NCBI GenBank assembly: GCA_030374765.1
Contig: JARGXX010000071.1
Span: 1,798,001-1,862,000, forward strand
Direction of reading: 5' to 3'
DNA from: Agarophyton chilense
Taxonomy: Eukaryota; Rhodophyta; Florideophyceae; Gracilariales; Gracilariaceae
DNA: 64,000 nucleotides
Shown: piece after piece, positions 7,016-64,000 of the stretch
Position numbering within the stretch: the stretch's first letter is position 1
How the letters are laid out: every line of letters begins with the position of its first letter
Position numbers and translations under genes: made by a program
Notes under the pieces: model-generated
The model's input: only the letters and a program-made list of their open reading frames with translations
Database searches by the model: none
Told to the model about the DNA's origin: nothing

Positions 7016-7555
7016 AGCTAGTGCTGGAGGAGAGTAGTTAATCCCGCCTCCTTTCGCGTGGGGCCATGGTCCGGCAACAGGGTTGCCAGACTACGCTCTG
7101 AATGTATCGGCGACTCCTGTTAGACTGTGCTCTTGTTATTTTAACAGCAACAACAGGCTGTTGTCTTTGCGCACAGATGGGGTGGTCGTTTCAGGGCAAC
7201 GGAAATGCCGAATGAATAACACGAGCGCTGTGGAGCACACGCCGTGCCTTCTACTAATTAGAAACTGAACGCAAAACATGTGGGTTAGGTCACACGAAGG
7301 AAGGCGGTATTATCGAAAAAGACCTTTGGTGTCTATCTGAGAAATTTAACAGACATTTGATACGGTGAGCTTTCCTCTGAAATTCCTTCTTCCAATTGGG
7401 TTCGAAGCATCACGCAATCTACAAGACGTGCCGTCGTAGCTTTTCGCGGGAACGAGTGACCTTGATTACGTAGTTTACCCTTTGTATAACTGTCTCTTTA
7501 AAAATGGATCCGTTGCGTCCACCTGCGCTATGACTGGCATAATAAGGCATTAGCC
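7016..7555. other. Intergenic region, no gene seen
   Basis: This gap lies between two genes on the minus strand. It should contain the promoter and 5' UTR of the membrane-protein gene and the 3' UTR of the histidine-phosphatase-like gene. I see no further coding or RNA feature. Confidence 0.5.
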
Positions 7556-8488
7556 TTAGGCAACAGGCAAACTATCATCAGGCTTTGAAAGGACCATAGC
7601 CTGTGGTTCACGAACTGGTTTTCCGTAGTCATCCGTCACTAATTCTTCAACTTTCCTCACTTCACCTGGCAAGTACTCCAGCAGATGATGGGTACATAGG
7701 TCCTGTCCCGTCAAAGTAGCTTGAAGAATGCTTAGGGGATCAGAATCCGGTGAAACTATTACAATATTTTCCCCAAAGTACTGAGTCTCCAATTTGTTCA
7801 GTAACTGCGTGACACGAACAAAGACGTCTTGGGTAGAATCATTCGGGGTGCCGTCTTCTCCGGCTTCAGGTCTCCAGCTGGAACTGTTCTTGTCATTTTC
7901 TGCAAGTATGCGACGTACTTGAACTGTTTCCCCACCATCAAGAGCTCCAACTCCTCTTGCATCAAGAAAGCTGAACTCCGGTACGATTTGCTCCCGTCGA
8001 ACTCGAAGTTTGCTTGCTATAATTTCGGCTGTTTGGAATGCACTCATGGTTACACTGGGCCAGATCCAGGCGTCGCTCGACAAGCCTTCCTTCTTCAGCG
8101 CTTCTGATGCTTGAATGGCTTGAGCAATACCTTTGTCCGTGAGAGAATGTTTCTCAATCGAGAGTTTGTAAACCGGGTTTGAATTCACCACTCTGGTTGC
8201 ATCAGAAACAGTCTCACAAGCACGCATTAAGAAATATTCATTCGTCAGTCGTTCTTTCAGCGGAAAGATGTGCAATCCCGATATAGCTTTCGATTCATTT
8301 GGCACCAGAAGCGCCGCAGCAGTGCCAATAGATACAGAGAGGAACTGACGACGCGAAACGGAAGCGACACATATTATGACATTTTCTCCTAAACGCCCCG
8401 CTCCAGGAGGTATCCTGGATGGAAGCGGATTCAGAACAAAAGTTAAGGATGTACCCTTCGTACCTCTGTCCAAAGGCATTAGATGCAT
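7556..8488 (-). CDS. Thylakoid-targeted histidine-phosphatase-fold protein, probable pseudoenzyme
   Basis: This is an intronless ORF of 310 codons from ATG 8488 (a second ATG lies nine bases in). Residues 1-44 are transit-peptide-like, followed by a twin-arginine signal SRRQFLSVSIGTAAALL (45-61) and an ESKA cleavage-like site (65-68), which suggests plastid import followed by Tat transfer into the thylakoid lumen. From NEYFLMRACETVSD (83-96) onward it resembles the plastid 'phosphoglycerate mutase family' proteins of plants, with DxRGVG and EDGTPND motifs and a LETQYFGENIVIVSPD segment. The canonical RHG catalytic motif is replaced by RAC, and the second catalytic His region reads VSPDSD, so both catalytic histidines seem absent. 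The fold is probable; catalysis is unlikely. The plant relatives I recall also have Ala in place of the first His, so the loss looks ancestral. Confidence 0.72.
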   Translation of the reverse strand: MHLMPLDRGTKGTSLTFVLNPLPSRIPPGAGRLGENVIICVASVSRRQFLSVSIGTAAALLVPNESKAISGLHIFPLKERLTNEYFLMRACETVSDATRVVNSNPVYKLSIEKHSLTDKGIAQAIQASEALKKEGLSSDAWIWPSVTMSAFQTAEIIASKLRVRREQIVPEFSFLDARGVGALDGGETVQVRRILAENDKNSSSWRPEAGEDGTPNDSTQDVFVRVTQLLNKLETQYFGENIVIVSPDSDPLSILQATLTGQDLCTHHLLEYLPGEVRKVEELVTDDYGKPVREPQAMVLSKPDDSLPVA

Positions 8489-8917
8489 GAATTAGACAGA
8501 TAACACACGAGAAATGTTTTGACGAGATTGTTCTGAGGTCAGAATAGGAAGCTTAGGCGCAGTGCAATTTCTTAATCCCGCATGAGGGGCCGCTTCTCAC
8601 AGAGAATGATGGACCCTGACTCACTGGCTCGTGAACTAGAGCTTTAATAAAGTCTCTCAACACTCTGAATCGCGATGAGTGGCATCCCACTCGAGACTTC
8701 GAAGTGCGAATTTCATGCAAAAAACTGTGGACAAGCGAATGGAGAGGAAGTCGTTCTACAGGCGGCTGGGGAGTAGGGTTGACTGTTTCGTGGCTGCGGA
8801 TGGACTTACTGGATTCATACTTGCAACATGCAATCTGATTCGCCAGCGCAAGCAACTACTAGATTTTATTAATGTACAGTTGTAAGGCAGTAAGACACTC
8901 CGAGGTGAAGTAAACTA
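8489..8917. other. Upstream region of the plastid-protein gene
   Basis: This contains the presumed promoter and 5' UTR of the minus-strand gene to its left. It ends at the TA target site (8916-8917) of the Tc1/mariner copy. No gene is seen. Confidence 0.45.
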
Positions 8918-9065
8918 CAGTGCGTTTCAAAAACATATCCCTTTACAAAAACTGCGCCAAAAAGGCATTTCACGTACTGTAGAGCACATTTCACAACAAA
9001 TAAAAACCACTAAGTCAATAACACTGTTTCAAAAGTATATCCTTTATACAATCATTCGCTCAATT

Positions 9066-10941
9066 ATGGCTCGTGGCGCACCTCTGACACGCTCTGAACA
9101 GCTGGAAATCATGGAATTAGTAGGTCAGGGTATGATTACAGCAGATATAGCCCGAAAACTCAAGCGCAGCCCAAAAACAATCAGCAACTTCATCAAAAAC
9201 CCCGCTACATACGAAACAAAGCGTTCAACCGGCCGTCCTACGGCACTATCCCCGGCCGATAAGCGTGGAATTAAGCGAAAACTATTCCGCAATACTTCAT
9301 CTTGCGGGAAAATTGTCAAAAATATAAATTTGCCTCTATCAAGATTTACAATATGGCGTGAAGTCAACCGTCAGAATTTGTTCAAGTACACAAAAATGAG
9401 GAAAACTTTTTTTTAAAAGATAATCACAAGAAAAATCGAGTTGAATGGTGTGCTAAAAAGGCTTATTAAAAAACAGAATGGAATAGTGTTATCTTTTCCG
9501 ACGAAAAAAAGTTTAACCTTGATGGTCCAGATTGCTATAAATTTTATTGGCATGATCTACGAAAAGAAAAGAAGGAATTTGTGACTAGGAATTCAGGAGG
9601 CGCATCAGTAATGGTTTGGGCTGGAATCTCCACGAAAGGAGCAACTAATATGGCTTTTGTTGAAACTACAATGAACTCTGAGAAGTATGCTGAGGTTCTA
9701 GAAAACTATCTTTTACTTTTTTTCATACTGTATGCACAGAGAAGAATTCATTTTTCAGCAAGATAATGCACCTGTGCATAAGTCTAATTCTATGAAACAG
9801 TGGTTCAATAGTCTAAATATGTCGGTTATGGAGTGGCCTGCGCGCTCTCCTGACCTCAACCCTATCGAAAACATTTGGGGAATGTTAGCCCGAATGGTTT
9901 ATGGGCAAGGAAGGCAATTTGATACAGTTTTTGATCTGAAAAATTGTATCAAAGATTTCTGGGAAAACATTGACTGTAATGCTATCAATCCTTTTATAGA
10001 ATTGTCGGACAATGCCCCCAAGGGGGAAAACCTACGAAGACGTCCGGATCTTCCTCTCACGAGGTAACCGGCGCGGTAGAGCCCTCCCAGGGATCGGCGC
10101 CCAATGCCGGGTGTAAGCCGGAGGCAAACCGTCGCGACGGGCGCAGGGAGGCTGAAAGAAGCCGAGAATATCCGCCGAAGCGGTGCTTGCGTATCCTCTG
10201 AGGAGGCAAAACCCACGAGAGTGGCGAGCACGACAGGTGTCAGTGCGAGCCGCGAGAGCGGGAATTGCCCAATGAAGGGGAGGAAAAGGGAAGGAAAATG
10301 GGAACGGAGGCAAGAGGGCGAGGTTGACGACGAGTCGCAAGAGGGGACTCGGGAATAGCCGGCACTGCCGGGTGTAACAAACCGTATACACGGGCGGAAC
10401 CACGAAAGTGGGAATAGATACCCAACACACGAAGGCTGCTTGAACGTCCAAGGGGGTTGGGAAGCCGTGCACCACGGGAAATCTCTCCGTAAGGAGTTGT
10501 ATATCCGCGCAGGCGGTTCGACCCTGAGCCAAGATCTGGAAGACTAAGATCACCCTTGTTGGGGAGACTTTATTGGACCGGCGGCCGCGAGGCCGGCGGC
10601 CTAAGTACTGTAGTCACCGTAGAATAGAATAAATAAAGTCTATCCCAAATAGCTAAATGTCCGTCTACAAAGGGGCCAATCTGGCGCCCACGTGTCGCGC
10701 GGGCGCTGCGGCCACGTGTATGGCACCCGGTCCCGCCGGTGCATCACTGGCGTTCCGGCCATCGCCGCGAAAACGGATTACTCCTACTCATAACGAGGTT
10801 GCACGCCGGAGGCTCCGGAAAAAACTTAAGTCCCCAAAAACCTCCCTGGAGGGCGTTGCTCTTCAAGAATCAATGCCAAGGCGTTGTATAAGTGTTATAC
10901 AGGCTAGAGGAGCAAAAAATAAACTACTGAACTCGCGTTAG
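9066..10941 (+). pseudogene. Tc1-like DD34E transposase, broken and interrupted by a solo LTR
   Basis: The gene starts at ATG 9066 with a helix-turn-helix region (LTRSEQLEIMELVGQGM, then IARKLKRSPKTISNFI) and a GRPT hook (GRPTALSPADK), typical of Tc1 transposases. The catalytic triad is visible: FSDEKKF (about 9500), QDNAPVH (about 9765) and NPIENIWG (about 9860), with 34 residues between the second Asp and the Glu, hence DD34E. The reading frame shifts twice (near 9416 and near 9730), there is an in-frame TAA near 9468, and the C-terminal end (PRRCISVIQARGAK, to the stop at 10939-10941) is separated from the rest by the LTR insertion at 10003-10865. It cannot make an active enzyme. Confidence 0.85.
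10003..10865. repeat. Solo LTR (863 bp) inside Tc1/mariner copy 1
   Basis: The insert begins TGTCGGACAATG and ends GTTGCTCTTCA, so it has TG...CA ends. It is flanked by a perfect 5-bp duplication, AGAAT, at 9998-10002 and 10866-10870. The empty site can be read from the decayed sibling copies, which run straight through this point. There is no internal coding sequence, so this is an LTR left after recombination between the two LTRs of a retroelement. Its 3' end resembles that of LTR-A in this window, but overall it looks like a distinct family. Confidence 0.85.
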
Positions 10942-11086
10942 CATAAAAAGGATGCAATAAAGGTTATGATTTTGAAACAGTTTTTTTACTTGAAAATTCT
11001 TTCACACTGATTTTGTTAGTTTTACTGTAGCCAAAACGTCGATTTTTGGAAAATTTGCGCGAGGGATATCATTTTGAAACAGACTT

Positions 11087-11464
11087 TACCACGGACGCAA
11101 CTGGAGTGCAAGACCTGATGTCGCACGCAGCGATACGACATCAGCAGTACAGCAAATGCAATGCTTGGATTCAGCACGCGCGCCACGACTGAAAGAGCAG
11201 AAAGCAACTGCGGTAACAGCTCGATTGAGCGCGTTTTAACTGCAAAGGTCACGAGCATAATGCAACCCAAGCGAGTTCGAAGCGAAGGGACTCGGAGAAG
11301 CATGTATAAGAGGACGGAGCAAACAAGTCCTGAAGCAATAAAGTAATCGCGGGAGGAGACGAACGCACAGGCAACTTGAGTCCTGAACTTGTTTCTTGCC
11401 TCCGTATTCAAACCCTAATTCTCGCCCTGTGTAACCATGAGCAACAGCTTCGTTCGTCTCACAA
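11087..11464. other. Spacer between Tc1/mariner copies
   Basis: Moderate-GC unique sequence between the right end of copy 1 and the left end of copy 2. Short open frames only; nothing recognised. Confidence 0.4.
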
Positions 11465-12608
11465 CAGTGCGTTTCAAAAATATATCCCTTGACAAAAACT
11501 GCGCCCAAAAGGCATGTAATGTACTCTAGAGCACATTTCCCACCAAATAAAAACCACCTAGTCTAAAATAATGTTTCAAAAGTATTTCCTCTATACAACC
11601 AATAGCTCAACTATGGCTCGTAGCCCGCCTCTGTCAAGCTCTAAACAGCTGACAATCATGCAATTAGTAGGTCTAGGTATGATTCCAGCAGATATAGCCC
11701 GAGAACTCAAGCGCAGCCCAACCCTCATGAAAAACTTCATCAAAAATCCAACAAAAAATGAGCAAAAGCGGAAAACTGGGCGCCCTACATCACTATCTTC
11801 AGCATAATAGAGAATAAATAAACAACAACTCTGCCGTGACACTTCATTTTGCAGAAAACTCGTCAAAAAACTAACTTTCTTCTCTCAATATCTACTATAG
11901 GTCTTTAAGTTAATCTCTAAAATTTGTTGAAATATATTTCAATGAGAAAGGTTTTTTCTTAGAAAAAAATCACAAAATGTATGAAATTGTGTGATAAAAA
12001 CGCTTATGAAAACGCTGCATGAAGAAGTGTTATTTTACAATAAAAAAATCAGCTTTAATGGACCAAATTGCTTCATGTTTTATTAAAATGGTTCACGAAA
12101 AGAGAAAAAGCAATGCTGAAAAGGTATTTGAAAAGCGAGTGGGTTATGGGTTTAACTATAATATTTACAAAACTGAAATTAATAGCGCTATTATGAGAAA
12201 AAGTTTGGCGTCTAAGAAACATTGAAACGTTCCGAAAAACTATTTGCTAATGTTTTCATAATGTATCTACGAAGAAAAATTTTCAACATGTATGGTTTTC
12301 CGCCAAAGTCTAATAATGTACAACAGTTTTTTAATGTTAAAAATATTTCGTTTATGGAATAAACTTTGCACTTGTCTTGTCCCAAACCTATCAAAAACAT
12401 TTGGAGAATGTTAGTTTGAATGGGTTATGAGTAACGAAGACAATGAGTTACAGTTTCTGATTTGAAATGTTTTGTCAAAGATTACCTGGCAGAAAGTGAC
12501 AATGATGCTACTAATTCTTCTGAAAAATAAATTCCAAACGCTACTTGAGCTTCATACAGCTTAGAATAGCTAATATAAACTACTGCAATCGCTATAGAGT
12601 CAAAAGAT
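11465..12608 (+). mobile_element. Tc1/mariner copy 2, decayed
   Basis: The left end CAGTGCGTTTCAAAAATATATCC and the following 150 bases are clearly homologous to copy 1, as is the N-terminal transposase coding start near 11613 (SPPLSSSKQLTIMQLVGLGM, split here only for length). Beyond about 11810 the coding sequence is full of stops and AT-rich substitutions but can still be followed past 12360 (an ENIWRML-like remnant) to about 12608. The right terminal repeat is not found. Confidence 0.7.
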
Positions 12609-13656
12609 CTTGTTGGTACTATAGAGCGGATAAATACTTGTTGGAGCTCTTCCGGATCTCCGGGTAAGAAATCTTCAATAAGGAATAAGATAGTTTGTAA
12701 ACTCGTTGTTGTCTCCTTTATTTTAAAGTCGGGGATCTCTTCTGTCCCATCTATGCTGTGCACGGGGGTGAGCACCACACATAATAATACCTAGATATAA
12801 ACTTGGTTATCCAATTAACCCCTCTACAGTACGGGATAAAAAGCCCTAAATGGGTTTCTGTCTACGAAGGGTAGACTTGGTTGTCACGTGGCTATCTAAT
12901 ATATGCGCCGTTGCCAATTCGTTATTTCCCTACAAAAGGTCTAATCGGATACGCCGTGGCAGACTGGGATCTTACGTGTAACATACCACCTCGCTGGCTA
13001 TCTGCGGGATGCTGCTTAATAGATTCATCCCAGCTGTTGCACACACCCATGAGTATCATCGTATTTGGACGAAAAATATTCTATCGGCATTTCCACAGTA
13101 GTAGAGTACTACATGGAGCGTCAATTCTGTACACATATTAATAAACTAAGATATTAGTAAATTTTTTGATATACATATCTGGAGCTGTTTCAAGTTGATT
13201 TGCTCAAAACATCTTATATTTTCCAATCCAATCACATACAAGTAACAAAAGAACGATTAAAACTAAATGATTTAGTGCACCACACACTCGATGGTGGTGT
13301 CTGTTATATAATAGTTCTTGATCACACAAGGGTGACAGCGCAGAACTGGGATCTAAAAAACAGACTTGATGTCGAGAGAAGAGATCTCAATTGGAATTTG
13401 AAAGGAAAAGATCACAATTGCTTTGAAAAAGGACAACGGCACATATAAAATAAACGAATAATTATTTTTCTCTCTGAATTCGTGTTTTTTTATGTATAGG
13501 GCGGTTTTGGATCTCAGTTTGGCTTGATATTGTGTAACGCATTGTTTTAAGCAGTGTTACGTCGAATATAGCTATGAAATGCAAATATCTAAAAACTTGT
13601 TATGCAGCCAATACACCTATCATTATGAGGGCAACAAGGTAAACGAAGACGATGTA
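12609..13656. other. AT-rich spacer, no gene seen
   Basis: This stretch between Tc1/mariner copies 2 and 3 has short open frames (for example 82 codons at 13200-13448) with no family resemblance. I see no RNA gene or terminal repeats. Confidence 0.4.
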
Positions 13657-51821: not shown

Positions 51822-52486
51822 TGTAGTATTCTACTATGTCGGGGAATCCGATAGGATGATTCTTCGCGAAGTCGGGGTTGGAACTCATAAGTGAGTGATG
51901 TCATCAAACTTGTGATATGAAACGGCACACCGCGTAGATGCCTAGACGCAGAATGTCTTAGTGGGACACGTAGTATAACGAGTGGAGTGGCTTGCAACGG
52001 CGCATGTAGTAGCGATCCACGTGGCTGGGTTTACTACTCTTTGTAGCTAGACGTCCATTAGGCACCATACCCATACAGTGGTCTGGCTAAGTGGCTGACC
52101 ACTGGGTCTTATTTACGTATTATTTGGGCGCTCACCCTGACACACAGTATATAGTGTACCAGAGGTGAGCGCCGACTCCAAGTAAAGGAGACAACAGGGG
52201 CATCATGACTATTCTGTTCATCGCTTAGGATTCCTTAAACGGAGATCCGGATGAGTCATAATAGATAGTCAGCCCCCAACCACTTCACGAGCCGTCTCGT
52301 ACCTACGTTCCATCAACGTTTTACAGTTGCACTGTTCACCCTCGCTGGCGAGTAGTGGCCTTACACCCCGCTTCCAGCTCGCTGGTATTGGAGCTCTACC
52401 ACCCCTTTTACTTCGCCGCAAGCGACCCATCGGCAGTCCGAACGCTGTCACAGGTGTCTGCTCTCTCCGTTAGAGCGGATACTACA
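51822..52486 (+). repeat. LTR-B, 3' LTR of E
   Basis: 665 bp, starting TGTAGTATTCTACTATG and ending GCGGATACTACA, nearly the same as solo LTR-B at 37317-37983. Confidence 0.9.
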
Positions 52487-52654
52487 AACAACATGGGGGT
52501 ATGACCTGAGGAGCTCACGGTCTTCAGCATTCGAGAGGTCAGTTGTGCCAGATATCTTCGAAACCACTTGGTCACGCGCCTGTCCTGCAAGGAAGAATTG
52601 GAAAAGGTGCAGAGCAGCGCCCTCGTGGACACCGTTTTGATCGCAGGCCGTACG
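52487..52654 (-). pseudogene. gag fragment of Gypsy fossil G, left of transposon T
   Basis: The minus strand reads a gag capsid-like stretch (GVHEGAALHLFQFFLAGQAR) similar to the gag of element D. The first part of the same gag lies at 63406-63900, on the other side of T. Old fossil. Confidence 0.75.
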
Positions 52655-52675
52655 TCAGTGTTCTCGGAATGCTAG
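52655..52675 (+). repeat. Left terminal inverted repeat of T
   Basis: TCAGTGTTCTCGGAATGCTAG; 20 of 21 bases pair with the right end (63385-63405). CGTACG precedes it. Confidence 0.9.
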
Positions 52676-52962
52676 TTCAGTGGTCAAAAAAGGACGAATT
52701 GAAATGACCGAAAAACCCGTGAATTTATCCAAATTTGGAGGTGTTAATTTCCGAAAATATTTTCTTTCGTTCATTAGTGCTAGTTTGTATGGGAAGGAAA
52801 ACTAGCACATATCTGCAGTTTTTCTAGTTTTGATGGAGGTAAAACTAGCGTGAATCTTTCTGTCGCCGCAGTTTAAAGGTAAAAGTAGAGAAGTGGTGCA
52901 AGAGCAGATTCAATCTTTGTGCGCTCTAGATTGACAGATTAGTACAAACAACCGGTCCCAAA
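52676..52962. promoter_or_regulatory. Left subterminal region of T
   Basis: Non-coding, AT-rich, with repeated motifs: AGTGGTCAAAA at 52679, GCTAGT at 52779, ACTAGC at 52801 and 52844, and TCTAGT near 52823. Subterminal repeats of this kind bind transposase in the CACTA group. The transposase promoter must lie here too. Confidence 0.55.
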
Positions 52963-53017
52963 ATGAACCTCAAAATAGAAATTGAACATTTAGTACCATC
53001 CATATCAATCGCAATAA

Positions 53018-56000
53018 AATCGCAGCCCGACCTGGCAGACCTCACGTGCCTTGCATTCTATATTATTCTCCACCGCCCTCCCCTGTCACGTGCCCTGTGT
53101 GCGCCATACTCTCTCTCCGTCTACGCCCCCTACCAACTTCTTTCCCACCACCTCTCCTCCACCCACCGTGCCTTCCTGCTGCTTCAACGGTTGCTCCTTC
53201 TTCGCCCGAGAAATCCCCGCCCTCCAGGGGCACCAGAGAAGGTGCCCTCATCGCCTCTCCGCCAACAAGCGCTTCCTCTCCCCTGGCAGAAATGAACCCA
53301 ACTTCCCCCCCCGCACAAAACGCCACAAGTCCACCTCACAACTCCCCCCTCATCCTTCTCCCTCACATCGCCCTTCCGACAACGTCCCTCTCGCACACCA
53401 TGACTCCTACCTTCAAGACCAGCTCTCTCTCTCCCTCCACACCCAGGACGCCATCCACGTCGCCACTGCCCCTCTCGGTTCCCCCTCCTCTTTCGCTCTC
53501 TCCCCCCTCCCTCCTTCCACTCCCCCCCTCGACAACCCCCACCTGGAGAAAATGGTCCTCTACATCTCCTCCATCGCCTCCAAGCTTGGACAACGAAAGG
53601 CTGACGAACTCATCACTCTCCTTAATGATCCCCACTTCTCCGAATCAACATTCCAGAACTCAGTCTCCTCCGCAAAGCAATGCCTCGAGCTCCAGGCAGA
53701 CCTCTTCCACCAGAGAATCAGGTCCATTGGTTTCGCCCCCTCCACCATCTTCGATCCCCACAAACGCTTCTTCGCAACCCTCTTCCAGAAAGACGCAATC
53801 CATGTCCTCAAACAACAGCTCGCCCTCGCACACTTCAAGAACACCTTTTTCCACCCCATCTCCCAAACATCCGCCTCCGGCTCCCCCTCCTTCGCACACC
53901 CCATGGCAGCCACCCTCGGCTCAAAAGTCGTCCCCACACTCAAGACCGCCATCATGCAGTCCACAAAAGACAACATCGTCTGGCATCTCCCTCACTCCAC
54001 CGGTATCGACTCCTTCATCGGCCTCGTCCAAATCTACTCCGACAAGTCCTCTACCTCTCTCAAATCTTCTTCCATCACCTCCTACCCCCTCCACATCACC
54101 CTTCTGAACTTCTCCGACTCCTTTCGCCGCAAATGCATCTCCGACAATCTCACACTCCTCGGCTATCTTCCCACCTCCTTCACCCCGATCATTCCTTCTC
54201 CAGATGCAGATATCATCACTCATTCCTCCTCCATCCCCCGCCAAACAAAAATGGAACTCATACAGCAGACCATCTCCTCCCTCCTTCAACCTCTCTTCTC
54301 TTCCGCCCTCCCCGGTTTCCCCTTCCGCGACGCAGACGGCGTTCTTCGTCAATGCCACCCCATCATCGCCAGCTACTGCGCAGACATTCCCGAGTCAAAG
54401 GATATTCTCGCCATATCCCACGGCACCCGCCCCCAGCACCCCTGCCACAGATGCTCTGTCCCTCGCTCACAACTCCACCAACACTCTCACGCCCATCCCC
54501 CTCGATCTCTTCCCCTCACCCTTGCAGCCCGCAACAAACATTTCTCCCTCCTCAAGGACTCCGAAGCAGCTCTCCTCGCCCGCAAGCCAAGAGTCTCGCC
54601 CAACTTCAAGGAACAAGCTCTCCAAGCACTCCACTCCCTCTCCCTCGCAAAATACCCCTCCCTCTTCGAGTCTTACCCCCTTTTCAACATCACCCCCCTC
54701 CTCACCCCATACAACATCACCCCCCTCCTCACCCCATACAACATCTTCCCCTTCGAACCCCTCCACAACTTCCACCTCGGCGTTTCCAAACTCATCAAGC
54801 TCGCCGCCATCGAACGTCTCAGATCAGAACACCTCTTCACCACCATCAGCTCCACAAACTCCCGCCGTTCCTTCCACTCCGTCCGCACATCCATCCTCAA
54901 GCACTCCAACTTCATCCTCACCGCCATCGAAAATCATTCCCCAGCTACCGGCCTCCACATCGACTTCTCTACTTCCGAAAGCGGGCAGTCCCTCAACGAC
55001 TTCTTCACAACTGACGCCGTCCGCGGCATGCTAGAAGCAAAAGACTACCGCGCCCTCGACATGGTCTTCCCCTTCATCGGCGCCTTTTTCGACCGCTGCT
55101 GTGACGAAGCCAATTCCGCTCCCATCACAACTGTCTTCTCCAAGTACACAGACCTCCTCCTCACCTCCATGTGCTACAACTCCGTCCCCGAATGGACCAC
55201 TTCTCGTCTTGCCAAACTCGCCTCCCAAATCCATTCCTTCAAGCACAGAGCTGTCGATGTTCTCGGTCCATACCATACCTCCAACCTTGGCACCCTCTAA
55301 TTCCACCTCCTCGATCACATCGTAGACGACATTCGACGCTTTGGGGGTCTCCACTTCAACGATGCAGGCATCTTCGAACAAGCCCATACCCTCTTCAAAG
55401 CACATTACTCCCGAACCTCCAAGCGCAGACCCACCGCGCACAACGAAACCATCCGTGCCATCGAACGCTCCGATGCCGTCAACAATTGGATTTCTCTCTC
55501 CGCTGATCCTTCCGTCACCTCATCCTCCCATGCCCCTCCTCCTCCCTTCCAAGCCCGCAAACCAGGTTTCGTCGGTGATGGCAAGCACACCTCCTTTTCC
55601 GATCTCATCACCGCTCACAAATTCCTTCCAGCAAACCCCCACTCAACAATCTCTTCCCTTCAGGACCTCTTCTCCCCAGACACTATTGCCATCATCTCAC
55701 AGATTGGGACCCTCGCACTCCCCTCCTTCGTCACACTCACACTCGAAACACTAGCTCTCAACCAGGACTCTCCCACTCTCCGCCAAACCCGTCTCACATT
55801 CGTCAATTCCGCATACGTCGTCGGCGGCTTCACCCCAACCTTAGACGACTACATCACCGATCGAAACGAGCTCGCCGTCAAAGTTCCCCCTCTCCCACTC
55901 ATTCAACGTATCTTCGCTGCTCCCTCCTTCGGTCCCTCTAAAACCCCAAAGTTCTCCCACATCCTCGTTGCCGATTCCAGCTTCTCCAACCCCACTCCCA

Positions 56001-56458
56001 CCCCCTGGGTCTGCAAGCTCAACTCTCTTCTTCGCTTCACCACCCCTTCTTCCCCTTCCACTCATAACGATTTCGCCTTCGTTCAGTTCCTCGAACTCGT
56101 TCCACCCCAGGATCAAGTCGATGTCTCTCTCAATTGCATCTGCCTCCGATGGGCAACAGATGACGAACAAAACCACACCGCCCACCCCCTTCCTATCTCA
56201 AACACTTCCAACTCCGACAACGACTCCCCCTGGTCCGGCCTCGTACCATCCTCTTCCATTCTCGGCCCCGTTCATGTACTTCGCCAAAACTACCCCGCAC
56301 CCCCTTTCACCCCTCGATTGCACTGGCGCTTCCATCGATTCTACCTCAACAGATTCTACCGAGACCTAACTGCCAAGCCCTACTTCTCCAACACCACCAC
56401 TGGTGGCACAACACCACCACTGGGTGGCACCCTTAATAATACCTCCCAAGGCACATGA
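53018..56458 (+). CDS. Plavaka-type (CACTA-related) transposase of T, with one in-frame stop
   Basis: One frame is open from 53018 to TGA 56456-56458 (about 1146 codons), apart from a single TAA at 55298-55300; sequence similarity continues past that stop. Counting from the codon at 53051, a C2H2/C2HC-like finger (CCFNGCSFFAREIPALQGHQ, 43-62) opens the protein. The RNase H-fold core has IYSDKSSTSLKSSSITSYPL (328-347; first catalytic Asp about 331), GYLP, a HPCHRC knuckle (464-469) and FEPLHNFHLGVSK (568-580). After the stop, FHLLDHIVDDIRRFGG and a C-terminal RLHWRFHRFYLNRFYRDL are also family-like. The first in-frame ATG is far downstream of the finger, so the true start probably lies on an upstream exon (ATG 52963 is in another frame). 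AATAAA is at 56462. A 27-bp tandem duplication sits at 54685-54738. Confidence 0.78.
54685..54738 (+). repeat. 27-bp in-frame tandem duplication in the transposase
   Basis: Two perfect adjacent 27-bp copies encode NITPLLTPY twice, just before the EPLHNFHLG motif. Identity of the copies suggests a recent event that may impair the enzyme. Confidence 0.9.
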
Positions 56459-56545
56459 TCCAATAAAATAGTCACCGCTGCTTTTCTTCCATAGCCGACC
56501 CCCATCTTGCTCCACCACCTTTCCCCCTTATCCCCCCGTACCTTA

Positions 56546-59240
56546 TCACTCTCCCACTCCTTGCCTACTCCCCAACGCTAAGCACTTGAACCGTGGTTCT
56601 TCTGGTCCACATGACGCTATACAGCAATCTAACACCGCTCCATGTCTTCTCGTGAGATTCTCCATGAAAAACTCCTCCCTTATCGCCAGATAGATTTTCT
56701 CTCTCGACGGTATCCATAGCCCAACCGTCGCGATTCTCTCCTTATTCCCACTCACATCTCTACGATTCCCTCCACAGAATCCATCATTCTCAAACTCCTC
56801 AGCATACTCATCCTTCATCATGTTCCAGGCAACCCTCAATATGTCCTCAACAGCCAGTGGCAGAAACCTCCCAAACAGCGTCGAGAACAAAAGTTGCCTT
56901 TGGCCTCCCCGCCCAACGTCTCTATCCATCGTGGTCACCACACATCCAATCCATGCATCAAGTCGCGCAAGATGCATCACCGTCCCATCCACATACTGCC
57001 TTTCTCCATTTCTGTGACTCTCTACCGCGTAGCCCATAAACTCCTCCAACACTTTCAACGACACCTGATTTCGAAAATACATATCTGCCTCACCAAAGTC
57101 CTCCAAGTTCTCAGACACCTTCGATCCAGAATAAGTAATATCTTCAATGGCACTCGTTCTCCACGCACACAGCTTACCTCTCCCATCCTCCCCCGACCCC
57201 ATCAACTTCTCCTGCGCCTCCTCAATCTGCTTCTTCAACTCCGCCCAAAGCTCCGTCCCTTCAGTCACCTTAGCTCGTTTCGCGATCAAATCATATCCAA
57301 GCATGGAAAACAGCTTATCACGCGCTGCTCGCTTCCGCACCCCAACCACATCGCTCAATGTCTGCTTCATCCTCTGTCTCAAGCACCTATCCGCACTTAC
57401 ATTTTCCATGCACTCCTCTCTCCTCCCCGCTTCCCTTATCGACTCCCATTTCTCTCCCATTAACTCAGTCTCTACCACGTGCTTCAACAATAAATGGCTC
57501 CCGCCCTCTGTCGACGGCGTATACGGTCTCATTTCATATGCAACCTCAATTGGACATCTCGGAACCATTTCCTTCTCTCCCACCACAAACCTACTTTCCT
57601 CCCTACTCTCCCCAACCGCCTCACTTCTATTCTTCCAGCTTCGACCCACATTCTCGGTGTTGAAGCAAAGTTCCGATGCCTCCAGTTTTGCATAATGAAG
57701 AATCCTATCATACACACGACGTGCAAATCCATAAAAGCATTCCTGCACTCCAATGTCATACTTTCGTCGCCGCGTCACGCCTCCCTCCCCCTCCCTTCCC
57801 CAGCGATTCTACCTTTCAACGCCTCCCTCAAACTCTCAATCAGCACATTCTGCTGCTTCATTTCCTCCCTCGCCCGATCCAGCTCCGTTTGGGTCATTTT
57901 CAAACTCACCATCACACTGTAGCTGTCTTCCTTCATACGTCCCATTTGTCCCTTCAACACATTCATCTTCTCAATTAGCATCGACCGCGGCAAGAAACCT
58001 ATGTCAGCATCATTTGCTTCATCTTCCACTATACGGACGGCGTTCTCCACGACATTTAAATTCTCATTCTCCCCGTTATCATTATTCCTTGTGAATACAA
58101 TGTTTCTCCTTACTCGCATACCTTCCGGCGTCCTTCGCCTTGCGTTCAGCTCAAACCCTTCAACTCCCAAACCCACCGCTCTCCTCGGTGGCAAACGCTC
58201 GACATCTTCTCCCTGATGAGAAAGAACTGCTGCTCTTCCATCGCCTTCCTCCCCTGAACCACGTTTTCTCCCTCCAGCAAACCCCCTTCTCCCCCCCTCA
58301 CTCACATGCACTTCTCTGCTTTCCCTTTCGTCTATCGCTCTTCTTCCTGCAACTCGAACACTCTCCACTCTTTCCCTTGCACGCTCTCTCCTTTCTTCCA
58401 CGTAATCCAAGTTCGCCCCCTCCCATCTTTCCGCCTGTTCCCCCGCGGTAACTCCAACACTCTCTCCTTCTGTTCTCTCTCGAACGACTCTTGCGCCCGC
58501 GATTAGACCACTACTGGGTCCACCTATTCTACCCTCCCCACCACGGCTCCTCTCTATTCTCCCTTTCTGTATCTCATCATCACCGTCCTCTTCCCTCATA
58601 CCCGTAAACGATGCCCCTGCTTCTTCAACGCCTCTGCAGCAGGATCCACGTTCTCCGATCATTCTCTCTCCCTCCTTACGCCCCTTCGTCCTCTCATTCG
58701 GAATCTTTTCACCTCCTTCAGGTGCAGAGCATGGATTTAACGGCTCCACATCAGCTGAAGACGTGAGTACAGCACTTAGAGTCCGCTCGAATGCATCCCC
58801 TCTCCTTGTCCTCCCTGGAGCTCTGCTCGCCCTCCCCCGCAATCCACTTCTAGGTACACGCGTGCGGTTGCTTCGCACGCCATCCCGTTTTCCATCGCCG
58901 CTCCCCACCATCTCTCCCGTAAGCGACGTGATTTGCTCCATACGCGACGTGATTTGCTCCGTACGCGACGTGATTTGCTCCGTACGCGACGTGATTTGCT
59001 CCGCACTCTCCTCCGTCACCGTCTCCTTTGCGCGAACAGCCTTTCCTTTGCCCCACTCGCCTCTCCTTCCCCACCATCTTGCCTTGATCTACCTCTCAGG
59101 CGCACGCCTCCCTTCTCTCCACTCGCGCCCTGGAGCCTACGCCCCTTGTCCCTTCCGCCCTCTGCATCCCCTCCATGCGGCCGTGATTTTGTACCGCGCC
59201 CACTAGTGTTCTCGCTTCTCGATTTGCGGTTCGGAGCCAT
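56546..59240 (-). CDS. Long basic/coiled-coil gene of T spread over three frames, function unknown
   Basis: Three overlapping open stretches follow one another on the minus strand: 59240-59016 (starts at ATG 59240, MAPNRKSRSENTSGRG), 59019-57775 (414 codons) and 57778-56546 (410 codons). The latter two have no ATG near their beginnings, and each lies one base back (-1) from its predecessor, so they are probably parts of one gene joined by splicing or frameshift. The first parts are Arg/Gly/Glu-rich and basic; the middle part opens with four TEQITSR-like repeats and ends in a coiled coil (MLIEKMNVLKGQMGRMKE, TELDRAREEMKQQNVLIESL). The third part is globular (YDIGVQECFYGFARRVYDRI; VVTTMDRDVGRGGQRQLLFS). 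I recognise no family. The gene is convergent with the transposase (88 bases apart) and divergent from the dioxygenase. DNA binding or partnering the transposase, as TNPA does in CACTA elements, is a guess. Confidence 0.5.
58923..59006 (-). repeat. 21-bp tandem repeat, four copies
   Basis: Four 21-bp units (GCGACGTGATTTGCTCCGTA plus one base on +) differ at only a few positions. On the minus strand they encode TEQITSR in the used frame, and stay open in the other two frames (ANHVAYG and RSKSRRV). Confidence 0.9.
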
Positions 59241-59460
59241 GGTTGAAGAGAGAGAGAGCGATCGTGGTATGGTCTTCCACGCGTTGCAATGCGATGGATG
59301 GGAGAGAAGCTTCGAAACATTCTGCTTCCAAAAATATACCTCCACCCTTTTCGTGTTCTCAGAAAACCCCCAAACTTTTCAGATATTTTAAATATGCGCT
59401 CGAACGCACCAGATATTGGAAAAGTATTCTCCTTCGGTGTACATGACTTTCCTTTAGCAT
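59241..59460. promoter_or_regulatory. Divergent promoter region inside T
   Basis: The 220 bases between ATG 59240 (-) and ATG 59461 (+) must serve both genes. AT-rich toward the right. No specific motif was identified. Confidence 0.5.
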
Positions 59461-61821
59461 ATGTACGTCAGGAGCGAAGGTCTCCTGGAGTTCTTTGAGA
59501 ACGTATGCAAGGAGGGTCCAGTGCTAACGCTTGCGCATATGTCGAGTGACTTGTTGTTAGGACTCGAAGACGAAATATTCCATTTCGCAATCCGTTGTTT
59601 GCAGCTACATGTGAGGGTGAGGATGGGTTCTACGGGGAATATGGGACGTTTCCAGGAGACGCGAAAGCAGTTCTTCCAATGCGCCATAGGAATGTTCCAA
59701 CTATGCGAAAGGGCGGGAAAGGAGAACGGTCTGACGGCGGGGAAGGTTCTAGACAGCACAACTGTGATGGGAAAGAACGAGGTGTCTTTAAGGGAGTATC
59801 TTTGCATGCAAACGGCGAAGATGGAGCTCAGTGGTCCGAAGCGGTTGTGGCCGGGGTTGGTGTCGAAGAGGATGAAAACCCCACAAAGGCGGATTGAAGG
59901 CGGTCTGAAAGTGAGTCTGGCGTCCCCAAGTGCGGAGAAGGATGTGGTGGAGGTGCCACCTTCTGTGAATGTTCCTTCGTCTAGTGCTGGGGAGTCTGTA
60001 CCCCACCAGGAAACCGTGGTTCCCAGACGCATCACACGAACTAGAAAAGGTACTGAGCGCGGGCTGGATGCTGCGGGTGAGAGGGTGATGGAACCTAGAC
60101 AGAGAAAGGGGAAGAGAAAGGCTGTGGTCATTAGTGATGATGAACGCGAGTATGAACAGCCTTTAAAGCGGAAGAGGAAGAGGAGAAAGACGGTGGGCAC
60201 ATCTGCGGCTCAAATACCGGCTGACGAGGTGGATGTGTTCAAGAAGATGAGCAGGAAAAAGCTGAAGCGCTTCTTGAAGGAACATGTACTCAATGTTTTC
60301 TCATCGAGTGAGGATGAACTGGATGATGACGGGGGGCAGGGTGCATTTGTAGGGGACAAAGAGAAGGAAGGTGTGCAAATGCGTGGCTCCGAAGACAATA
60401 ATCCGGAGGGTGTTCCGAAGGGGCTGAAGAGGGCGGGACCGTATGCGGGGGGGTCGGGTATGTCGTGGGTGTACTTGGTGAATGCACTTCCGAGCGAGTG
60501 GCCGGCGGGTGAAAATGGAGTGAAGCATCAGCACCTCTGGATGCAGATGATTTACCTACGGAACAAGCACAGGGCGGAGTGCTTGAGGGTAGAAGACTTG
60601 AAAAGTGTGCACCATGCGGTTTATTGGCGTGCTGCTCATAACAGGCACAAGCAACTGGGTTCCACGAAAGAACCGGTTCTTGGGGTGATTCTACCGACGA
60701 AGGACCACCCTGTGAATGAAGAGCAGGCGATATGGATGGCAGCAATGGAGAGGGATGACTTGGCCCGCGAGTACTTCGCGACTAAGAGAAGTGAGCTGAT
60801 GGAGAAAGGATTTTGTGTGCTGGAAGAGTTTGCCACGGACGAGGGGATGGCGGATGAGGCGAAGAAGAGTGGGGTAAACTTCGATGGGGATGTGAGTGGG
60901 ACTTTGCTAGAGTTCTTCCAGACGGATTTCTTGAACCAGCCGGACTTGACGATTGAAGGGAATAGAAAGAAATGGGACCCTATAATCAACGCTGGTGAGG
61001 AGAGAGACGCTGGAGATAGAATGAAGGGAGTTGGGCGGTACATTACGACGAAGGTGGGGATTGTGGATTCTGTGGAGGGGGACGAGAACAACGTTTTAAT
61101 GCTGAGGAAAAGGGCATTGTTGGATGCGAGGTTTGGACAGATTGCGGCCGGTCTTCGGTTGTGCAACAACCGGTCGGGGAAGAAGAGGATGTATGCCCCT
61201 AAAACAGGGGGGCGAGTGCTGTGTACGGCGGAGGGCTGTCCAAGGCAGGTGTTACATACGGACTTTCGAGGACTGACCGATGCCGAGAAGAACGTCGGAG
61301 AGGTTCCAGGGTTCTTCATGATGGCGTCGGGAGCGAGTTCGTTTATGCTTTGGATTTGTGAGAGGTCACATAACATGTACGTGGCCGACGACAGGAGCTT
61401 GAAGCGGCTGTCTCGGACGATGGTAGTGAGGAAGTTCAGGATTGCGCCGTACTCTATTTTTATTGGAAGAGGAGATGTGTTTCATGCTGGAGCTGGATAC
61501 GAGAATGCATTGGTTAAGGAAGTTTGCATGAGGTATCACATGTACTTGGTACTGGATGGGTACAAGCTACCGGACGCAGTGCATAGGCAACCAGCATTTC
61601 GGCCTAAGTTCGAAGAGGATGATTCCAACAAGGGTGATGATGAACACGTTCAGGTAGATGAGGATGAGCAGTTGGATGAAGATTATAAAATGGAAGTTGT
61701 TGAAAGTGGGAAAGAGGAGTATGAAGAAGAGGATGATGAACCTGGGATAGATCTCAACTCGGCTAATACAGATGGAGACTATGAAGACGGCGGTATGATA
61801 ATGGATGACGACGACGACTAG
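59461..61821 (+). CDS. Probable 2-oxoglutarate/Fe(II)-dependent dioxygenase encoded by T
   Basis: This uninterrupted ORF of 786 codons starts at an ATG. The C-terminal half carries the double-stranded beta-helix dioxygenase signature: QVLHTDFRGL gives H599 and D601 (HxD), RGDVFHAGAGYEN gives the distal H675, and MRYHMYLVL supplies R691, spaced as expected for binding 2-oxoglutarate. Hydrophobic strands (PGFFMMASGASSFMLWI, FRIAPYSIFIG) lie between. The N-terminal 150 residues form an unknown domain; about 186-245 is Lys/Arg-rich with likely nuclear localisation signals (KRKRKRRK); the last 70 residues are acidic. Enzymes of this fold that act on nucleic acids include TET/JBP and AlkB; I cannot place this one in either. 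Fungal TET/JBP genes are known to travel with KDZ transposons. A role in oxidising modified bases or chromatin proteins is inference. AATAAA is at 61845. The frame is intact, which suggests recent selection. Confidence 0.65.
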   Translation: MYVRSEGLLEFFENVCKEGPVLTLAHMSSDLLLGLEDEIFHFAIRCLQLHVRVRMGSTGNMGRFQETRKQFFQCAIGMFQLCERAGKENGLTAGKVLDSTTVMGKNEVSLREYLCMQTAKMELSGPKRLWPGLVSKRMKTPQRRIEGGLKVSLASPSAEKDVVEVPPSVNVPSSSAGESVPHQETVVPRRITRTRKGTERGLDAAGERVMEPRQRKGKRKAVVISDDEREYEQPLKRKRKRRKTVGTSAAQIPADEVDVFKKMSRKKLKRFLKEHVLNVFSSSEDELDDDGGQGAFVGDKEKEGVQMRGSEDNNPEGVPKGLKRAGPYAGGSGMSWVYLVNALPSEWPAGENGVKHQHLWMQMIYLRNKHRAECLRVEDLKSVHHAVYWRAAHNRHKQLGSTKEPVLGVILPTKDHPVNEEQAIWMAAMERDDLAREYFATKRSELMEKGFCVLEEFATDEGMADEAKKSGVNFDGDVSGTLLEFFQTDFLNQPDLTIEGNRKKWDPIINAGEERDAGDRMKGVGRYITTKVGIVDSVEGDENNVLMLRKRALLDARFGQIAAGLRLCNNRSGKKRMYAPKTGGRVLCTAEGCPRQVLHTDFRGLTDAEKNVGEVPGFFMMASGASSFMLWICERSHNMYVADDRSLKRLSRTMVVRKFRIAPYSIFIGRGDVFHAGAGYENALVKEVCMRYHMYLVLDGYKLPDAVHRQPAFRPKFEEDDSNKGDDEHVQVDEDEQLDEDYKMEVVESGKEEYEEEDDEPGIDLNSANTDGDYEDGGMIMDDDDD

Positions 61822-61902
61822 ATAGTATCTGTTACCTATTGAACAATAAAGAGTACAATTTGAGGTAATATGTGGAGTAGTCCCTTTTTCTTGTAATAGT
61901 GA

Positions 61903-62732
61903 TCAGTCGTCTTTCAGTAGAAACTCCTGAACAACTGGATTGAAACGCGTGAAAGCAGCACTTGCTTTCACTTTCTCATAGTGAATGACAACTGTCGAAG
62001 ATATCAAGATTACGACATCCACTGTGTTACCAAGCAGTATAGGAACACCAGGGCTCTCAATGCGAGAGGTGGAGAAGGCGGTTGAAGAGAGTGCAGCGAA
62101 AGTGCACGCCGACAGCCTCATACAGAGTAGTCGGAAGGTTACAGCCGGACTGGATATGAATAAAGCCTGTTGAAAAGAGTGGGAGAGGGCGCCAAGCATG
62201 AGGTTCATAAAAGAGGTTCTCCGTGGTTCCGGGGTCATTGTGAACTTTGTGTTAAGATAGGACTCTCGAAAGAAGGATATAGAAACAAGCTGGAGAAGAT
62301 ATGCCAAAGCGCCAACTGCGGCCCCTCCTGTGGAGAAGGCGATACAATTTGTCTTCACGTCTGGTGAAAGAGTACCGCTGACTGGAATGAAGCGGTGAAC
62401 GAAGAAAAGTATGGCGTTGAGGGGGATGAGTAGAGTAAGGAGTAGAGCCCCGAATTCCAGAAAGGCTTGTTTCTTCCAGGTATATCGCTGGTTTGGATTG
62501 AACGGCGTAGTTTGTAGAGACCCGTATAACGCGTTTATACATTGTACGCCTCCTTCGATTATGAGAATGTGTAGCAGGCTTTGGATAGGACACTTCAATA
62601 GCGTTATGAGAATGAACCGAAGGAGAGAGTTGAATCTGAATGGAAGCGTATATTGCAGAGCTGGGTCTATAACTCCGAAGAGTGTAGTTAGTGTGATTGT
62701 GAACGTTAAGGTCGATGTGAAGAGTGTTTGCT
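61903..62732 (-). CDS. Multipass membrane protein encoded by T, N-terminus unresolved
   Basis: The frame is open from just below a TAG at 62731-62733 down to the stop at 61903. There is no ATG in its first 30 or so codons, and TTCAGTTAG directly before 62730 on the coding strand looks like a 3' splice site preceded by a CTAAG motif, so an upstream exon is likely. Four or five hydrophobic segments can be seen, for example LLRFILITLLKCPIQSLLHI, FGALLLTLLIPLNAILFFV, AAVGALAYLLQLVSI and VDVVILISSTVVIHY. I recognise no family. It is convergent with the dioxygenase gene (81 bases). A membrane protein as transposon cargo is unusual; it could be a captured host gene. Confidence 0.5.
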
Positions 62733-62829
62733 AACTGAACATCTTAGTAAAGGCGTTCCGGTTTGCTAGTCTTCCTTGTACGCTGCACATAGGTAACGAT
62801 ATGATACCACTCTTTGAACAGTTGTTTCA

Positions 62830-63153
62830 GAGTATCTGAAGGAGGTGGGAGAGGAGAGGGGGAGAGCGAAAGGGTCGCCGGTGACGCCAGGGAGACGCGG
62901 GGAGCCGGCTGGGATGAAGAAGGGGAGAGAGTAATGGAAAGGGGGAGGAGTTGGAGAGAGTCGGCTGAAGAAGAGGAGGGTTGGTAAGGATGTGGAGAAG
63001 AAGGGTGGGAATGTGTGTGTGGTGGGGCAGCCGGGTGTGAGGAACTTGAGCAGTGGGGAGGTGGACGAGGTTGAGAATGCGGTGGTGGACTTCTTCAACC
63101 TCAAATACCCTCCCGGTGGAACGCTGGAGCCTAGTAAGCAAAAGGGTCAGTAA
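62830..63153 (+). pseudogene. Short coding-like stretch on + strand of T, unassigned
   Basis: One frame ends at TAA 63151-63153 and has strong G-ending codon use like that of the dioxygenase gene (KKGGNVCVVGQPGVRNLSSG; VENAVVDFFNLKYPPGG). It carries one in-frame TAA at 62932-62934 and no clear start. It may be a last exon or a gene remnant. The opposite strand is also open but looks less protein-like. Confidence 0.3.
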
Positions 63154-63384
63154 GGAGGTAGAAGGTACTGACGACTGCCTTGGTATGGATCTCCACCTAG
63201 AGCGGTCAAAAGTGACCAGTAAACTGCAAATGCAGAATAAACTGCATTAAGTGGTCAAAACACTAAGATGCATGGAGTTATTATTTCCAAAAATTTTTTT
63301 TTCAGGTACCGAACTAGCGCAATCTGCAAAATTCTTAGATTTTTTGGCTTTTTATTTACAAAACTAGCTATCTAGCACACTTAT
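63154..63384. promoter_or_regulatory. Right subterminal region of T
   Basis: Non-coding. Contains AGTGGTCAAAA at 63250 (same orientation as at 52679), an inverted AAAAGTGACCA nearby, ACTAGC at 63313 and 63363, and TCTAGC near 63371 and 63384. Likely transposase-binding repeats. Confidence 0.55.
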
Positions 63385-63405
63385 CTAGCATTCCGAGAAC
63401 ACAGA
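63385..63405 (-). repeat. Right terminal inverted repeat of T
   Basis: CTAGCATTCCGAGAACACAGA on +, the complement of the left end with one mismatch; followed by CGTACG. Confidence 0.9.
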
Positions 63406-64000
63406 CGTACGGAACAAACTGAGAAACCTAAGGACAGCAATGGGATCGGAACCCGAGAAGTTGTCCGTAATGGTTAGTTGCATTCGTTTGGCCCATTTTG
63501 CGACCCTGCAAGCCACCGAACCAGTATATTTTGGAGACCTGTCGGCCAGACGAAAATTCCGGTTGTCTCGAACTTTAAGGAAAAGTTCGTTTGTGGGTGT
63601 CAGTGGTCTGAGGCCTCGAACGGCAGCCTCATCCACTTCCGAGTCGGTCGTTTCGGTCGAGGCTGATTCGGAATCACTCGTGTCCAAATGGTTACTTCTT
63701 TTGCTACCACTGTTCTTGTTTCTCCTGTGGTTTCTTCTTTTCTTTCCAGCGGAATAGGGACCTAAAGGATCGATCTCTCTATCAGATCTGATGGAGCCCT
63801 GAGGTCAGTGTATCTCATATAATCCGTCCGGTGGGGCAAACGGTCTCTCTTCTAGACGCGGAGCTTCTTTTCTGCTCTTGGCTTGTTCCACCCTTGGATT
63901 TTCCTCATGGGCAATCTGTCTCTCATCTAGACGCGAAGCTTCTCTTCTGCTTTTAGATTGTCCCACCATGGGGTTTTCTTGATGGTATTCTCAGCGAGGG
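63406..64000 (-). pseudogene. gag fragment of Gypsy fossil G, right of transposon T
   Basis: The minus strand reads a gag N-terminal region: a low-complexity part, a Ser/Glu/Asp-rich part (MDTSDSESASTETTDSEVDE), then FRLADRSPKYTGSVACRVAK and FSGSDPIAVLRFLSLF, similar to the gag of element D (GTNPIAVIEFLQKF). It continues on the other side of T. The fossil runs off the window end. Confidence 0.75.
63834..63983 (-). repeat. 75-bp direct tandem repeat, two copies, in gag of fossil G
   Basis: Two diverged 75-bp units share TCTAGACGCG(G/A)AGCTTCT and AATC/AACGGTCTCTC-like blocks. On the minus strand each would encode 25 residues of charged repeat (pattern KSRxEAxRLxER). Confidence 0.75.

Follow-up and report, generated by a model that had tools for sequence, protein, structure and literature searches.

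The stretch analysed here, called the window, comprises 64,000 nucleotides of contig JARGXX010000071.1 of Agarophyton chilense (positions 1,798,001 to 1,862,000), and the feature under study is a mobile element between positions 52653 and 63407 of the window. In our view this feature is probably a degenerate copy, with internal deletions, of a giant Plavaka/CACTA-related multigene transposon that carries its own kit for the modification of chromatin. Copy comparison and profile scans established the unit, its mobility (through target site duplications, TSDs, and empty sites), the co-linearity of its cargo and the methylase and SET domains of one cargo protein. The full element is predicted to encode a transposase, a 1,043-residue methylase-SET protein, a 1,228-residue protein in which a DGxHR part, ParB/DndB-like by motif, is joined to a 2OG-Fe(II)-dioxygenase-like part, ketopantoate-reductase-like and membrane-protein-like products and a protein of about 930 residues. 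The features of the window copy are as follows (TIR, terminal inverted repeat; ORF, open reading frame; C117, a full-length copy used as the reference).

52651..52652, no strand: left TSD copy (TA), from the letters of the window, with a 2-bp TSD in 26 of 30 paired copies
52653..52675, plus strand: left TIR, CGTCAGTGTTCTCGGAATGCTAG, from copy comparison and the genome-wide search (402 matches at two mismatches or fewer; the reversed control had none)
52653..52952, no strand: left subterminal region in which AACTAGC/GCTAGTT (CTAG) motifs recur, a probable transposase-binding region, from CTAG counts
53051..56458, plus strand: Plavaka-type transposase gene with an in-frame stop at 55298-55300, from ORFs, Pfam and copy comparison
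56546..59241, minus strand: gene with a putative coiled-coil-like part, in several frames in the window, its upper edge set by comparison
59466: internal deletion junction, where 5.87 kb of C117 (positions 7043 to 12914) is gone
59466..61821, plus strand: 3' part of the DGxHR-dioxygenase gene, keeping the HxD...H...R dioxygenase-like part without the DGxHR part, from the ORF and copy alignment
61903..62598, minus strand: membrane-protein-like ORF of 231 residues, from the ORF and a profile scan
62837: internal deletion junction, where 2.2 kb of C117 is gone, including the ketopantoate-reductase-like gene
63385..63407, minus strand: right TIR, from copy comparison and genome-wide TIR matches
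63408..63409, no strand: right TSD copy (TA), from the letters of the window and the TSD test on paired copies

A first-pass annotation, made from the letters of the window, had placed the inverted ends at 52655 and 63405, where they match with one mismatch over 21 bp, and had read a duplicated target of CGTACG beside them. The inverted match stands, but the true TIR is longer. Immediately outside ends of this type a CG was found on both sides in 11 of 12 copies (11 fetched from the genome plus the window copy), the exception being copy C1, in which the left end is altered; in the same 11 copies the next two bases beyond the CG agree between the two sides. The recurrence of the outer CG indicates that the TIR is 23 bp long (CGTCWGTGTTCTCGGAATGCTAG), occupying 52653-52675 and 63385-63407. 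A genome-wide search with this sequence, allowing up to two mismatches, returned 402 matches (205 forward and 197 reverse), whereas the reversed pattern, used as a control in the same search, gave none. Further copies with the same TIR, for which the annotation had proposed to look, are thus numerous. From the 100 matches that were listed, all of them perfect, we formed 30 oppositely oriented pairs and compared the flanks of every pair. The two sides were identical over 2 bp in 26 of the 30 pairs (mean of 4.3 and maximum of 11 in 2,000 shuffles), over 3 bp in one pair and over 4 bp or more in none, the 2-bp duplication being absent from four pairs. We conclude that the duplicated target comprises two bases, which in the window are TA. 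A six-base TSD was rejected on the same counts, as CGTACG resolves into TA and the terminal CG, read as a palindrome.

The annotation had read a split gag on the two sides of the element; that the insertion interrupts a repeated host sequence was borne out. When the 200 bases on either side of the element (52453-52652 and 63410-63609) were joined, 1,273 candidate places were found in the genome; all 40 that were scored ran continuously across the junction, at 89-90% identity and with a length difference at the junction of zero in 36, one base in three and two bases in one. Thus, the insertion site is a copy of a very abundant repeat. Just beyond the element, at 63834-63985, lie two tandem units of 75 bp with 81% matches. 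Subterminal repeats bound by the transposase are common in CACTA-type elements, and the CTAG-rich termini suggest repeats of this kind, with six CTAG in the left 300 bp of C117 and four in the right 300 bp, as compared with 0.25 per 300 bp internally.

The assignment of the transposase to a Plavaka/CACTA-related type was confirmed. The window gene matched PF18759 with E = 1.7e-22, passing the cut-off of 26.3 bits, and the gene of copy C86, the translation of which contains a CxxC motif (PCHRC), matched with E = 5.7e-20. Open frames of 1,137-1,148 codons are kept in three of the four 18.7-kb copies described below. PF18759 was the only family detected for the transposase, and the protein does not class with the KDZ transposases. 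The 2-bp TSD agrees with the length published for Plavaka elements (2 bp, or 3 bp in PlavakaB; Kojima, 2025, PMC12730594). The TSDs and the empty sites strongly support movement by the Plavaka transposase, which would bind the CTAG-rich ends and move the whole unit. Plavaka matches in the host genome number at least 123, from 235 candidates, and a different profile coverage (109-306) that recurs at C70:53409, C69:33747 and C60:6417 suggests that further Plavaka families are present in the host.

The size of 10.75 kb given at first is that of a shortened copy. Searches with either end and with the dioxygenase region each yielded 40 scored matches (of 136 candidates for the left end, 125 for the right end and 67 for the dioxygenase region), and four of the 11 fetched copies, at four loci, are co-linear and 18.70-18.81 kb long (C117, 18,770 bp; C10b, 18,806 bp; C86, 18,722 bp; C79, 18,702 bp; all measured from ends of the 52655/63405 type). 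The lengths of the 30 TIR pairs ranged from 3.0 to 39.7 kb and fell between 18.0 and 18.9 kb in nine. The complete form in this family is therefore about 18.7 kb long, and the window copy is one of many shortened derivatives. The longest pair, 39.7 kb at C12:334864-374563, has mismatching 2-bp flanks and is perhaps a nested or double element. We rejected the possibility that the window copy is a complete element, as two blocks, of 5.87 kb and 2.2 kb, are missing from it relative to C117. The DNA lost at 59466 comprises the whole methylase-SET gene and the first 443 or so codons of the DGxHR-dioxygenase gene. This first missing block varies among copies from 4.1 to 5.9 kb, and copies C88 and C100 align without a break through the site at 62837. 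Across shared parts, identity to C117 ranges from 97.7 to 99.7%.

Eight of the 12 copies (C117, C10b, C86, C79, C25, C88, C100 and C135) retain roughly two thirds or more of the methylase-SET gene along with the greater part of the dioxygenase fusion; only three of them, C117, C10b and C86, have each of the two large cargo genes as a single open frame. The proposal of a multigene unit, with further genes between the ends, is upheld by this recurrence of the cargo between the same ends. Copies with the same TIRs that lack the cargo, which the annotation had taken in advance as a sign of chance assembly, do exist, and are many; yet those that were aligned are co-linear with the 18.7-kb form and derive from it by deletion, which argues that the assembly is not due to chance.

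The most striking cargo, the methylase-SET fusion, was missed earlier because it is deleted in the window copy. In C117 the gene has 1,043 codons and lies on the minus strand, and its product matched N6_N4_Mtase (PF01555) with E = 2.7e-18 and SET (PF00856) with E = 6.9e-5, both above the Pfam cut-offs (for SET, 23.7 bits against 22.4). We searched 5.8 billion proteins for relatives and examined the 8,000 candidates that share most words with the query. Eleven relatives were found. Identity between P0001 and the query is 49%, across 99% of the latter; in P0002 and P0004 both domains are above cut-off (SET at 30.5 and 30.1 bits). The DPPY motif is invariant in all 11 aligned methylase sequences, P0009 and P0011 having been excluded from the alignment. 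The PF01555 match, DPPY and a motif for binding of S-adenosylmethionine (SAM) together mark the protein as an amino-methylase of the N6-adenine/N4-cytosine group; judging from the known classes, the motif order, DPPY then SAM, and the DPPY letters favour N6-methyladenine (6mA) over N4-methylcytosine (4mC) as the product. Consistent with this group, a profile of 11 sequences matched the adenine-specific DpnA (6.8e-18) and CcrM (6.4e-9) in the PDB, and its SET part gave weaker matches to KMT2C (3e-5) and SETD8/KMT5A (0.0024). One relative, P0008 (1,142 residues), has a DGTHR-containing N-terminus followed by the DNA methylase and a weak SET match. Together with the DGxHR gene of the element, this hints that the two cargo genes work together.

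The host genome has 116 matches to PF01555, among which no clear single-copy host methylase was seen, not every match having been assigned. Classed by the part of the profile that they match, 31 of the 116 belong to a second type (26 at profile positions 1-216, four at 148-216 and one at 163-216; the weak matches at C10:616239 and C99:885794, which also end at 216, were excluded). Where the distance could be decided, 24 of 25 second-type matches lie less than 25 kb from a contig end, although several of these contigs may simply be short. In the one copy that was read (L045, C103:8500-15500), two plus-strand frames, at 261-3599 and 4485-7001, hold a methylase-SET fusion and a neighbouring ORF that has an OrsD domain, and the SET domain, at 26.1 bits, is above cut-off. 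Hence, one methylase-SET family is common to the Plavaka element and to a second kind of repeated element, which may be subtelomeric.

The dioxygenase gene that had been recognised in the window does carry HxD...H...R dioxygenase-like motifs, but it is only the 3' part of a gene of 1,228 codons. The window ORF, at 59461-61821, extends upstream in C117, and the full gene (plus strand) has no interruption in C117, C10b or C86; in C88 and C79 its open part starts at residues 206 and 265, respectively. A query with the whole length of the fusion found no homologue, probably because its acidic low-complexity words flooded the search. Limited to residues 830-1160, the query found eight relatives, the best with 54% identity there. 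Relative P0012 is 54% identical in the dioxygenase region and 39% identical when the alignment is taken as a whole, and one relative (35%) is annotated as a hypothetical protein of Gracilaria domingensis. The H and D of HTDF (HxD) are invariant in all nine aligned fusion sequences, and the distal H (GRGDVFHAG) and R (RYHMY), read by eye, are present in all eight that reach this part. The D, G, H and R of DGxHR are invariant in the seven sequences aligned there; on this motif two members matched DndB, with E = 0.083 and 0.17, values that are not significant. A TET/JBP identity of the enzyme found no support, as none of the nine family members matched the TET/JBP Pfam model, with hits admitted up to E = 5. 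In the host, 39 matches to the fusion were listed (38 of 338 candidates were scored), all 94-100% identical and none of them a diverged copy; 30 span residues 1-1228, eight of these without an internal stop. A search for prokaryotic relatives gave 27 pattern matches, none of which was confirmed.

The gene with the putative coiled-coil-like part is unbroken in C100 (930 codons) and C135 (960 codons) but split in the window copy and in C117; no Pfam family was above cut-off in the pieces of it that were scanned. The C117 counterpart of the membrane-protein-like ORF matched an MFS-type profile only weakly and in part (E = 0.0027, well under the cut-off), and no family was assigned to it. The ketopantoate-reductase-like ORF of C117, of 274 residues, weakly matched ApbA_C (0.038) and PRK06249 (7e-4, well under the cut-off of that profile) and found no match in the PDB. 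Smaller ORFs without an assigned family sit at the right end of the full form.

A red-algal host, considered probable at first, is confirmed by 13 phycobilisome-linker matches in the genome, seven of them on contig C39. The same contig holds 14 of 15 phycobiliprotein-family matches and looks like the plastid. The phycocyanin beta of the host is closest to 2bv8, a Gracilaria chilensis structure, from which it departs at 11 of 162 residues by a count made by eye. Red algae are reported to be without zf-4CXXC_R1 (CDCA7-type) proteins, in a panel with three Rhodophyta (PMC10538959).

How the cargo might serve the element can be outlined from its domains. The methylase-SET protein would write a base mark, more likely 6mA than 4mC, and a lysine mark on the chromatin of the element. 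The DGxHR-dioxygenase may act on, or with, the mark of the methylase-SET protein, as the linkage of the genes and the fusion in P0008 suggest. Together, the two proteins would set the state of expression or transposition of the element, or shield it from silencing by the host. A broader proposal, which we hold only tentatively, is that mobile elements, and not the host, supply both amino-methylation (6mA/4mC) and histone lysine methylation, the Plavaka element and the contig-end, probably subtelomeric, element each carrying a dual writer in one protein, with the DGxHR-dioxygenase as reader or eraser; the elements would then own an epigenetic system in a lineage without a detected C5 methylase.

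Several observations weigh against a giant transposon with its own chromatin-modification kit. The 18.7-kb copies are a minority of the TIR pairs (nine of 30), and most copies with cargo bear stops or frameshifts. Among the relatives of the methylase, SET is below cut-off in P0001 (20.5 bits), P0008 (19.0) and P0010 (15.6), a Pfam scan found no SET match in P0009, and the precomputed Pfam assignments list SET in only two of the 11. The N-terminus of P0008 gave no significant match in Pfam, NCBIfam or the PDB that would confirm a ParB-type fold. Likewise, sequence searches of the dioxygenase fusion against Pfam, NCBIfam and the PDB returned no significant match; the calls rest on motifs, and we therefore name the protein dioxygenase-like and ParB/DndB-like by motif only. 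The ends of the element, 5'-CGTCWGTG, match neither of the published fungal Plavaka lineages (A, 5'-TGT..ACA; B, 5'-CATCA..TGATG; PMC12730594). Accordingly, we do not place the element in lineage A or B and regard it as Plavaka by its transposase only. Finally, there was no sign of recent purifying selection on the cargo or the transposase within the genome: relative to C117, amino-acid-changing differences were as common as under a composition-matched null that preserves mutation type and CpG context (ratio of 0.85-1.24 in eight segments, the transposase included).

This last result bears on a further explanation, which we regard as possible if rather doubtful, namely that the cargo consists of host or bacterial genes captured by chance and carried unused. 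Such passengers would agree with the lack of selection on every gene segment and with the many copies that are far shorter than 18.7 kb and still keep perfect TIRs and 2-bp TSDs. The ratios, however, fit neutral decay after insertion and speak neither for nor against a function of the cargo; because transposase and cargo decay alike, the missing selection says nothing special about the cargo. Moreover, relatives elsewhere keep long frames, as in P0001 over nearly the full length and in P0012, a second kind of element took up the same methylase-SET family, and the host PF01555 matches, as far as they were assigned, yielded no clear single-copy host methylase.

We think it unlikely that the dioxygenase strips a silencing base mark in the manner of TET, the role proposed for TET-carrying transposons of fungi. 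This reading would draw on the HxD...H...R motif, on the fungal Plavaka elements with TET/JBP for which that counter-defence was put forward (PMC12730594) and on the methylation of about 8%, biased to non-CG sites, reported for Gracilariopsis chorda (PMC8566409). The nine members of the family, however, lack a TET/JBP Pfam match, as noted above, and a six-frame search of the host found no C5-cytosine methylase (PF00145), although an intron-split gene could be missed; 10 of 14 control genomes were positive. Relative to C117, transitions per site were 0.097 at CG, 0.070 at CHH and 0.057 at CHG, so that CG is only slightly above the other contexts and no strong damage from CpG methylation is seen. 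With no C5 methylase detected in the host, escape from 5-methylcytosine by a TET-like route appears less likely than marking controlled by the element itself.

It is very improbable that the 18.7-kb form arose recently by insertions into a small Plavaka element, with the window form as the ancestor. The window copy is indeed shorter by two clean blocks, but the first junction cuts through the middle of the 1,228-codon frame, which is open in three copies and of full length in 30 of the 39 listed host matches, and a nested insertion is therefore unlikely; the varying size of the first block is, in addition, what deletions would give. An endogenised virus or a Polinton-like element, for which the size of 15-20 kb, the several genes and the TIRs might speak, is more improbable still, since no polymerase or capsid Pfam family was found among the scanned proteins of the element and the TSD is 2 bp, whereas that of Polintons is 6 bp. 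In IMG/VR, all 17 pattern matches to the dioxygenase fusion went unconfirmed, and the SET part is not reached by any of the 51 methylase loci among the matches listed.

A bacterial-type methylase joined to SET would couple DNA and histone marks in one step, and here it is borne on transposons. If active, the proteins would extend the epigenetic enzymes borne by eukaryotic elements (C5 methylases of retrotransposons, TET of transposons) to amino-methylation and histone marking, and they would supply a definite, testable candidate source of the DNA marks that have been described from red seaweeds. The family is also a practical system to work with: its ends are clear, empty sites exist, and the 402 TIRs, if most of them pair, correspond to about 200 copies in a genome of 80 Mb. 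The literature searched, which was mainly open-access, yielded no account of a transposon with a methylase-SET fusion, and the family is new in its ends, its host and above all its cargo.

The Starships of fungi, which use a tyrosine recombinase, are likewise giant transposons. Like them, the present element is a giant unit with cargo (PMC12289983), here with a Plavaka transposase. The combination of Plavaka and a dioxygenase, put forward as new at first, had already been described: Plavaka elements with TET/JBP are known from two species of Agaricales, with TSDs of 2 or 3 bp (Kojima, 2025, PMC12730594). Our element shares with these a Plavaka-type transposase, a 2-bp TSD and a dioxygenase or dioxygenase-like gene aboard; it differs in its red-algal host, its 5'-CGTC ends, the lack of a TET/JBP match, the additional methylase-SET, reductase-like and other genes and its length of 18.7 kb. 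The giant Plavaka repeats of Amoebidium, up to 50 kb long, resemble it in their intron-poor gene clusters beside a Plavaka transposase, and hits to them are said to lie in dinoflagellates or red algae (Sarre, 2024, PMC11244446). In the available passages of that account many of the genes are tyrosine recombinases, and neither a methylase-SET gene nor TIRs or TSDs are given, whereas the red-algal unit has defined limits and co-linear copies. Retrotransposons of Symbiodinium and charophytes also bear a DNA methyltransferase (De Mendoza, 2018, PMC5890265), but there a retrotransposon carries a cytosine-C5 enzyme, and here a DNA transposon carries a PF01555 amino-methylase fused to SET. Finally, bdelloid rotifers are reported to have a eukaryotic 4mC mark, with a bacterial-type amino-methylase (PMC8885841); a methylase of this type in a eukaryote is common to both cases, and in the red alga it is borne by mobile elements and fused to SET.

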